DNA of 64,000 bases from Lachnospiraceae bacterium (GTDB taxonomy: Bacteria; Bacillota; Clostridia; Lachnospirales; Lachnospiraceae): positions 62,001 to 126,000 of the forward strand of contig SVEF01000002.1 of NCBI GenBank assembly GCA_015057585.1. Reading direction: 5' to 3'. Shown one piece after another: positions 17,715 to 49,912 of the stretch. The first letter of the stretch is position 1. Each line of letters starts with the position of its first letter. A program made the position numbers and the translations under genes. The notes under the pieces were generated by a model. It saw nothing but the letters and a program-made list of their open reading frames with translations. It was not told the DNA's origin and did no database searches.

Positions 17715-17967
17715 ATGGCAGATATAGGGCGAAGCGAAGTGGAAATTTTTATGAAAGAGCAGATAAAAACAAAGGGGCAGTTTTATTCAGACGGAACTCT
17801 AAGAAAACGTCGGCACTTGGCGAAGTGCAGCGAATTTGAAAAATTCGCTTGAGCCTTAGTGCCGCTACGTTTTCGCCGAAGCGGGAGCGGGTTCCGGAGA
17901 ATAAAACTGCCCCTTGTTTTATGTATCTTCAAAAAATTTCCACGAAAATCTGCCATATATCTGCCAT
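17715..17967 (+). repeat. Long palindrome with structured core, copy A
   Basis: The innermost arms are near-perfect (GGGGCAGTTTTATTC at 17774-17788 with its complement at 17899-17913). Weaker complementarity continues outward to ATGGCAGATATA on the left and TATATCTGCCAT on the right. The core at 17790-17897 folds as GGAAC/GTTCC, AAAACGT/ACGTTTT, CGGC/GCCG, ACTT-GGCG-AAGT and AGCGAATTT-GAA-AAATTCGCT. It also allows two crossing pairs, CTAAG (17799-17803) with CTTAG (17855-17859) and GGCGA (17819-17823) with TCGCC (17873-17877). It is homologous to copy B at 49682-49912. Confidence 0.85.
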
Positions 17968-26785: not shown

Positions 26786-26856
26786 AGGGGATTGGTCAAA
26801 TGGTATGACAAGGGTCTCCAAAACCTTTAGCGGGAGTTCGATTCTCTCATCCCCTG
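26786..26856 (+). tRNA. tRNA-Trp (anticodon CCA)
   Basis: The cloverleaf folds fully: acceptor AGGGGAT / ATCCCCT, D stem GTCA / TGAC with GG in the loop, anticodon stem AGGGT / ACCTT with loop CTCCAAA (anticodon CCA), variable TAGC, and T arm GGGAG-TTCGATT-CTCTC, with discriminator G. The 3' CCA is not encoded, so it must be added after transcription. Confidence 0.95.
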
Positions 26857-40741: not shown

Positions 40742-40941
40742 AGATATTTTTGGTGCATTATCCTAGGGTGTGCGACACTCTCTGTTATTTTGAACCTACA
40801 TTTCTTTCAAAGGGATTCCAATATTTTTAAGTGGATGTCAGGCCTCCTTTGTCAGTGGAAGGCAGAAGCTTAAGTGAGGTTACCCACCTAGCTTAGCTAG
40901 GAGTCAAAATACGAGAAACGGCATTTTGGGATAATGCAAAA
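40742..40941 (+). ncRNA. ssrS: 6S RNA
   Basis: About 190-200 nt. The closing stem GCATTATCC (40755-40763) pairs with GGATAATGC (40929-40937). Conserved Firmicutes 6S segments are present: GGGTGTGCGACACTC, GAACCTACATTTCTTTCAAA followed by GGGA, then GTCAGGCCTCC and, near the 3' side, AGGCAGAAGCTT and GGTTACCCACC. 6S RNA mimics an open promoter and binds the sigma-A RNA polymerase in slow growth. It was identified from recognised sequence pattern and fold, without a covariance search. Confidence 0.87.
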
Positions 40942-49683: not shown

Positions 49684-49912
49684 CATTTATCATATCCTTT
49701 TTGATGAGTATTAATTATGTAGAGTTCCGGGGATATTTTATCCGGTGCAGACTCTAAGAAAACGCCGGTCCTTGGCGAAGTTCAGCGAAACTTGTTTCGC
49801 TTGAGCCTTAGTACCGCTGCGTTTTCGCCGAAACGAAAGTGGGTCTGCAAGGATAAAATATCCCCGGAACTCTTATATAATAATACCCAAAAGGGACATG
49901 ACTAAATGTCAT
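49682..49912 (+). repeat. Long palindrome with structured core, copy B, reaching into rpoD
   Basis: Inner arms are perfect over about 22 bases (GAGTTCCGGGGATATTTTAT on the left, its complement on the right). Weaker complementarity extends outward to GACATTTA on the left and TGTCATATCCCTTT on the right, which is the 3' end of rpoD. The core at 49746-49849 folds as TGCAGAC/GTCTGCA, AAAACGC/GCGTTTT, CGGT/ACCG, CTT-GGCG-AAG and AGCGAAA-CTTG-TTTCGCT. The same two crossing pairs as copy A are possible: CTAAG 49754-49758 with CTTAG 49807-49811, and GGCGA 49774-49778 with TCGCC 49825-49829. Confidence 0.88.

Follow-up and report, generated by a model that had tools for sequence, protein, structure and literature searches.

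The 64-kb window, that is, the whole stretch of 64,000 nucleotides analysed here, holds a structured intergenic element at 17715-17967 on the + strand, with a core at about 17784-17904 as delimited by sequence reading and by cmsearch. The core is enclosed by a left outer arm (17715-17783) and a right outer arm (17905-17967), both recognized from the sequence and its fold, which pair with each other, the outermost ATGGCAGATAT of the left arm pairing with ATATCTGCCAT; the element is thus limited as described in an earlier note on this DNA, with the qualification that these limits take in the outer arms, which are locus-specific within their own genome. The core of this first copy scores 128 bits (E 8.4e-32) in cmsearch with a model whose training set includes the copy itself. 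The same note had claimed a homologous core near 49.7 kb, and this was borne out: a second copy at 49739-49856 (+ strand, 115.5 bits) matches the core of 17784-17904, is bordered by inner arms at 49719-49738 and 49857-49876 (delimited by sequence and cross-species comparison), and sits between a spore protein gene and an rpoD-like sigma factor gene. The only Rfam matches within the window are a 6S RNA (40757-40936) and a tRNA (26786-26856).

The core folds into a three-way junction of nested helices that includes tandem G-A pairs, a CU bulge and a side hairpin with a GNRA loop. The fold comprises 41 nested pairs, defined on 15 aligned copies from the own genome and making up an outer stem, P1, a 2-bp helix, P2, P3, P4, the apical P5 and the side hairpin. 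In the first copy, the 5′ sides of P1 and of the 2-bp helix UC/GA occupy 17792-17799, P1 joining 17792-17797 with 17891-17896 and the 2-bp helix 17798-17799 with 17878-17879; both helices covary, the latter occurring as UC/GA, CG/CG and CC/GG types. The 5′ sides of P2 and P3 follow at 17803-17817, and covariation is found both in P2 (17803-17810 with 17867-17874) and in P3 (17811-17817 with 17858-17864, part of it fixed by the search pattern mentioned below), the CU bulge (17865-17866) lying beside these two helices. The segment 17819-17823 contains the 5′ side of P4 (17819-17821), which covaries as RRY/RYY, and the tandem G-A pairs (17822-17823 opposite 17851-17852), where GA faces GA in all 15 aligned copies. 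The apical hairpin P5 (17829-17849) is variable and frequently replaced; the loop of the side hairpin GC-GGGA-GC (17881-17888) is conserved among copies, being GNRA in 15 of 15 from the own genome and in nearly all of 98 sequences from others, with the variants GAGA, GAAA, GGGA and GCAA all following that rule. A K-turn was rejected on sequence inspection, the tandem G-A pairs being on the wrong side of the bulge. Three variant cores from other loci (L288, L289 and L313) carry an extra hairpin of ~40 nt between P2 and the GNRA hairpin, the remainder being intact.

In the 15 own-genome copies, 97% of the paired cells of the 41 pairs are indeed paired, and changes on both sides are found at 23 of the 41 pairs, in 83 cells against 25 after shuffling (0/500 shuffles). 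The corresponding set from other genomes consists of 104 matches, 98 of them distinct, from 80 loci; it shows both-side changes at 38 of the 41 pairs, in 744 cells against 221 after shuffling (0/500), and controls with slid pairs drop to background. This second alignment was fitted to the model, many of its sequences are related, and the loci were fetched by a sequence pattern in which P3 and P4 are largely fixed; the columns so fixed are invariant by construction. Nested covariation, the mark of a structured RNA, was above background in both the shuffle and the slide controls. The compensatory changes reported in the earlier note between the two window copies (at 17810/17867, at 17814/17861, in the AGCGAA hairpin, and from GGAAC/GTTCC to CAGAC/GTCTG) are all correct, and the pattern lies far above chance in the shuffle tests on both the 15 own copies and the 98 other sequences. 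Its two pseudoknots, CTAAG/CTTAG and GGCGA/TCGCC, had to be abandoned: neither contains a covarying pair, every measure of the covariation test equals that of the shuffles, and the helices are often broken, the first pair in 6/15 copies for CTAAG/CTTAG and in 12/15 for GGCGA/TCGCC; their identity in the window copies simply reflects how similar these two are. Mismatched cells read on the + strand comprise 75 G-T against 45 A-C, an excess suggesting that it is the + strand that folds. The number of wobble pairs is unusually small, 75 of about 3230 paired cells, a rarity with which a DNA-level structure or arm copying would also be compatible.

The own genome contains about 16 copies by DNA search and 18 full copies by the covariance model R1. 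The core is present in 26 of 98 relatives, all of one bacterial family, several of which hold >30 copies; in a class-wide sample, a match was obtained in 4 of 5 genomes of the family (own genome included) and in 0 of 143 others, no other family in the sample having a core match. Named matches are mostly Lachnospiraceae, including Butyrivibrio and Agathobacter, and come mainly from rumen and gut assemblies, which would place the window itself in Lachnospiraceae as well. The search of the whole genome and its relatives proposed in the earlier note has thus yielded many further copies with significant covariation. A phage, plasmid or viral origin was rejected, as the search of viral contigs, plasmids and phages for the core gave no match in any of them. 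In Rfam 15 at gathering scores no family matches the core of the element, with nothing relevant at E up to 10, and the cores from other genomes likewise gave no match, so that the suggested Rfam search also ended without a family for the core. The same search bears on the idea that the core might be a ribozyme, self-cleaving or otherwise catalytic, that MITEs have spread, in favour of which the large number of conserved unpaired bases in its compact junction would speak; no ribozyme family in Rfam was matched, and this idea is regarded as very improbable.

The element is a non-autonomous, MITE-like transposable element, and its copies spread as DNA, since those of relatives have terminal inverted repeats and target-site duplications. 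In one genome (G054) the copies share inverted ends, GTTACTKYTYAYGGGGTGGGGAAA at both ends, with 53 sites in each of the forward and reverse orientations, the reversed control giving 0, and the flanking 8-mers have 57.6% identity against 25.9% expected, 6 of 23 being perfect; other duplication lengths are near background in this genome and only 8 bp stands out, the target duplication usual for the IS66 family. In other genomes the ends resemble GGTAATTGCGAAACT, with TA on both sides in 7 of 17 and in 0-1 at other offsets; two different end types with different flanks imply that at least two kinds of ends carry the core. Mobility is demonstrated in these relatives; in the two copies of the window neither a clear target duplication nor terminal inverted repeats could be made out. 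The element is non-coding, and an autonomous partner with the same ends was found in G054, where an IS66-family transposase (PF03050, E 1.5e-17; 581 aa) lies between the same inverted ends as those of that genome's core-bearing MITEs, 2.3 kb apart (L284 304-2611); most likely it moves same-ended elements in trans in that genome. The search by ends in G054 also returned elements of 56-181 bp that lack the core, those that bear it being about 240 bp or longer, and the existence of two end types together with core-less elements with the same ends indicates that the core is not needed for transposition. An autonomous version with genes between two cores was looked for and rejected, these intervals holding only ordinary host genes, or an HTH gene and one further gene. 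The latter arrangement (L128 3900-5850) places the HTH gene and a 264-aa gene, possibly cargo, between two direct copies of one element type; the 264-aa product contains HEIYH and is perhaps an ImmA/IrrE-type peptidase. Two core-less remnants (L018 and G050:C6:25608-25737) still possess an almost perfect outer palindrome and look like products of a precise core deletion. The earlier note's view of a selected structure outside any Rfam family stands; its premise that a MITE identity would refute it does not, the element being both MITE-like and covarying in the manner of an RNA.

That the mobile element contains a selected structured core is well supported. Over 29 copies, picked partly by core score, divergence is 0.058 in the core against 0.15 and 0.107 in the arms, and this comparison was therefore checked with copies found by ends alone. 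The five core-bearing copies so obtained (L288, L289, L300, L309 and L313) all keep the junction, the stems and the GNRA loop, three with the extra hairpin, and selection on the core hence seems to go beyond the transposon that carries it. Across the bacterial family the core is conserved and covaries; it stays intact where the ends have diverged, and occurs on at least two end types. The arms behave differently: in 16 own-genome copies the two arms of a copy are 84% complementary to each other, whereas arms of different copies are 55% alike. The copy at 49.7 kb is old: it is orthologous in three species, two further species of the genus having it at the same locus, and its arms differ among species yet stay complementary, with coupled changes on both sides. 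Such complementarity would follow from selection on pairing, and likewise from one arm being copied onto the other.

Elements sit between genes, with same-direction neighbours in 81 cases, convergent in 30 and divergent in 8 according to crude gene calls; 15 of 167 lie within a possibly spurious open frame of 100 codons or more. Elements kept by the host mainly as bidirectional terminators or mRNA 3′-end hairpins would be expected in such mostly intergenic places, with convergent neighbours far above divergent ones, and the long and stable arms, as well as the old copy that rpoD and the spore protein gene flank with their 3′ ends, suit this explanation. It is quite improbable nevertheless: the 3′ composition profile is without a T tract, which led to the rejection of an intrinsic terminator, and no T-rich tract lies beyond the arms; two copies in opposite orientations are found inside an apparent panB-panC-panD operon (names from reading translations), between its genes; and a plain terminator needs no conserved junction, bulge or GNRA loop. 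A promoter of its own on the 5′ side was also rejected, sigma-70 scores being no higher than on the other strand or in the flank. Where the flanking genes are co-directional the orientation is unbiased (36 vs 45), an argument against any role in host mRNA that would depend on orientation. At one locus (L184 308-3346) a gene of about 345 codons is tandemly duplicated, each copy being followed by a reverse-oriented core.

Cores within 800 bases of each other face by their 5′ sides, with their own kind or with TwoAYGGAY. On named contigs, core pairs <800 bp apart are head to head in 12 of 12 cases; thirteen copies of one composite unit in G050, also head to head, count as one event. In another genome (G040) the core pairs with TwoAYGGAY in four loci, the 5′ sides facing likewise, and TwoAYGGAY is itself multicopy, with three head-to-head pairs within 500 bp. 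The head-to-head spacer goes down to 56 bp, leaving little room for a shared promoter. Membership of the core in TwoAYGGAY (RF01731) was rejected, its model matching no core and only neighbouring elements. A CsrA-binding role has been proposed for this RNA (PMC4333381). In this bacterial family it is multicopy, palindromic and often head to head, at L066 243-424, L067 651-829, L071 1974-2157 and L072 1009-1175 and also in G003, G007, G011 and G025, behaviour more in keeping with a mobile element than with a small RNA that binds CsrA.

The strict head-to-head pairs, including the 13-copy composite unit, are also what would favour the core as folded DNA, in hairpin or cruciform form, that is conserved for movement, perhaps as a transposition enhancer or as the site of a transposase or recombinase, and the few wobble pairs and the absence of a promoter signal point the same way. 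Against such a function in movement, the core occurs with two or more end types whose target duplications differ, same-ended elements of 56-181 bp do without it, and its side loop obeys GNRA, an RNA rule; a DNA function is thus unlikely. The core likely acts as RNA, as suggested at the sequence level by the GNRA loops and the wobble asymmetry. The explanation as a whole, a MITE-like non-autonomous element with an RNA-type structured domain acting in transcripts, is considered fairly probable. In such a scheme the core would be transcribed within the mRNA of flanking genes and would fold into the three-way junction with its GNRA hairpin, a cellular partner would recognise the folded core, and this recognition would keep the insertion harmless or useful, while the long locus-specific arms would stay paired via selection on pairing or arm-to-arm copying. 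More tentatively, and with doubt prevailing, the core may be a portable functional RNA, protein-binding or catalytic, that passes from one transposon vehicle to another, unrelated one and acts in head-to-head pairs, either with a second copy of itself or with TwoAYGGAY; a family of bacterial MITEs would then be a carrier of selected RNA modules and not mere insertion-sequence debris. The core is a widespread structured element missing from Rfam and would be an addition to it; the mobile element offers a concrete explanation for the orphan TwoAYGGAY RNA, hitherto discussed as a CsrA sponge, and the many copies, as natural replicates, lend themselves to the question of why an RNA fold is maintained by selection within a transposon whose ends can do without it.

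Among known systems, MITEs with transcribed hairpins and TwoAYGGAY come nearest. The element shares with bcr1, ERIC, NEMIS and RUP the short, non-coding sequence, inverted ends and intergenic location; MITEs of this type are moved by transposases that recognise their ends (PMC3733652), and bcr elements have been found in mRNA (PMC3446304). The junction described here differs from them in being strongly covarying, conserved across many genera and borne by elements with more than one type of end. REP elements with RAYT transposases are likewise palindromic intergenic repeats, of 20-40 bp and tied to HUH transposases (PMC3733652), whereas the ends, target duplications and IS66 gene found here fit DDE transposition; core-bearing elements, at ~240 bp or longer and with 8-bp or TA duplications, are set apart from REPs by size and duplications. 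The IS66 family has inverted ends in common with the MITEs of one genome and shares their 8-bp duplication, but no core is seen in the IS66 copy and the MITEs are without the gene. TwoAYGGAY (Rfam RF01731, clan CL00106) resembles the core-bearing element in being multicopy in the same bacterial family, in its long locus-specific palindromic arms and in its head-to-head pairs, besides being the partner of the core in the four loci of one genome; its inner domain, however, consists of two hairpins with AYGGAY loops, which the core does not have, and the two models show no cross-match.
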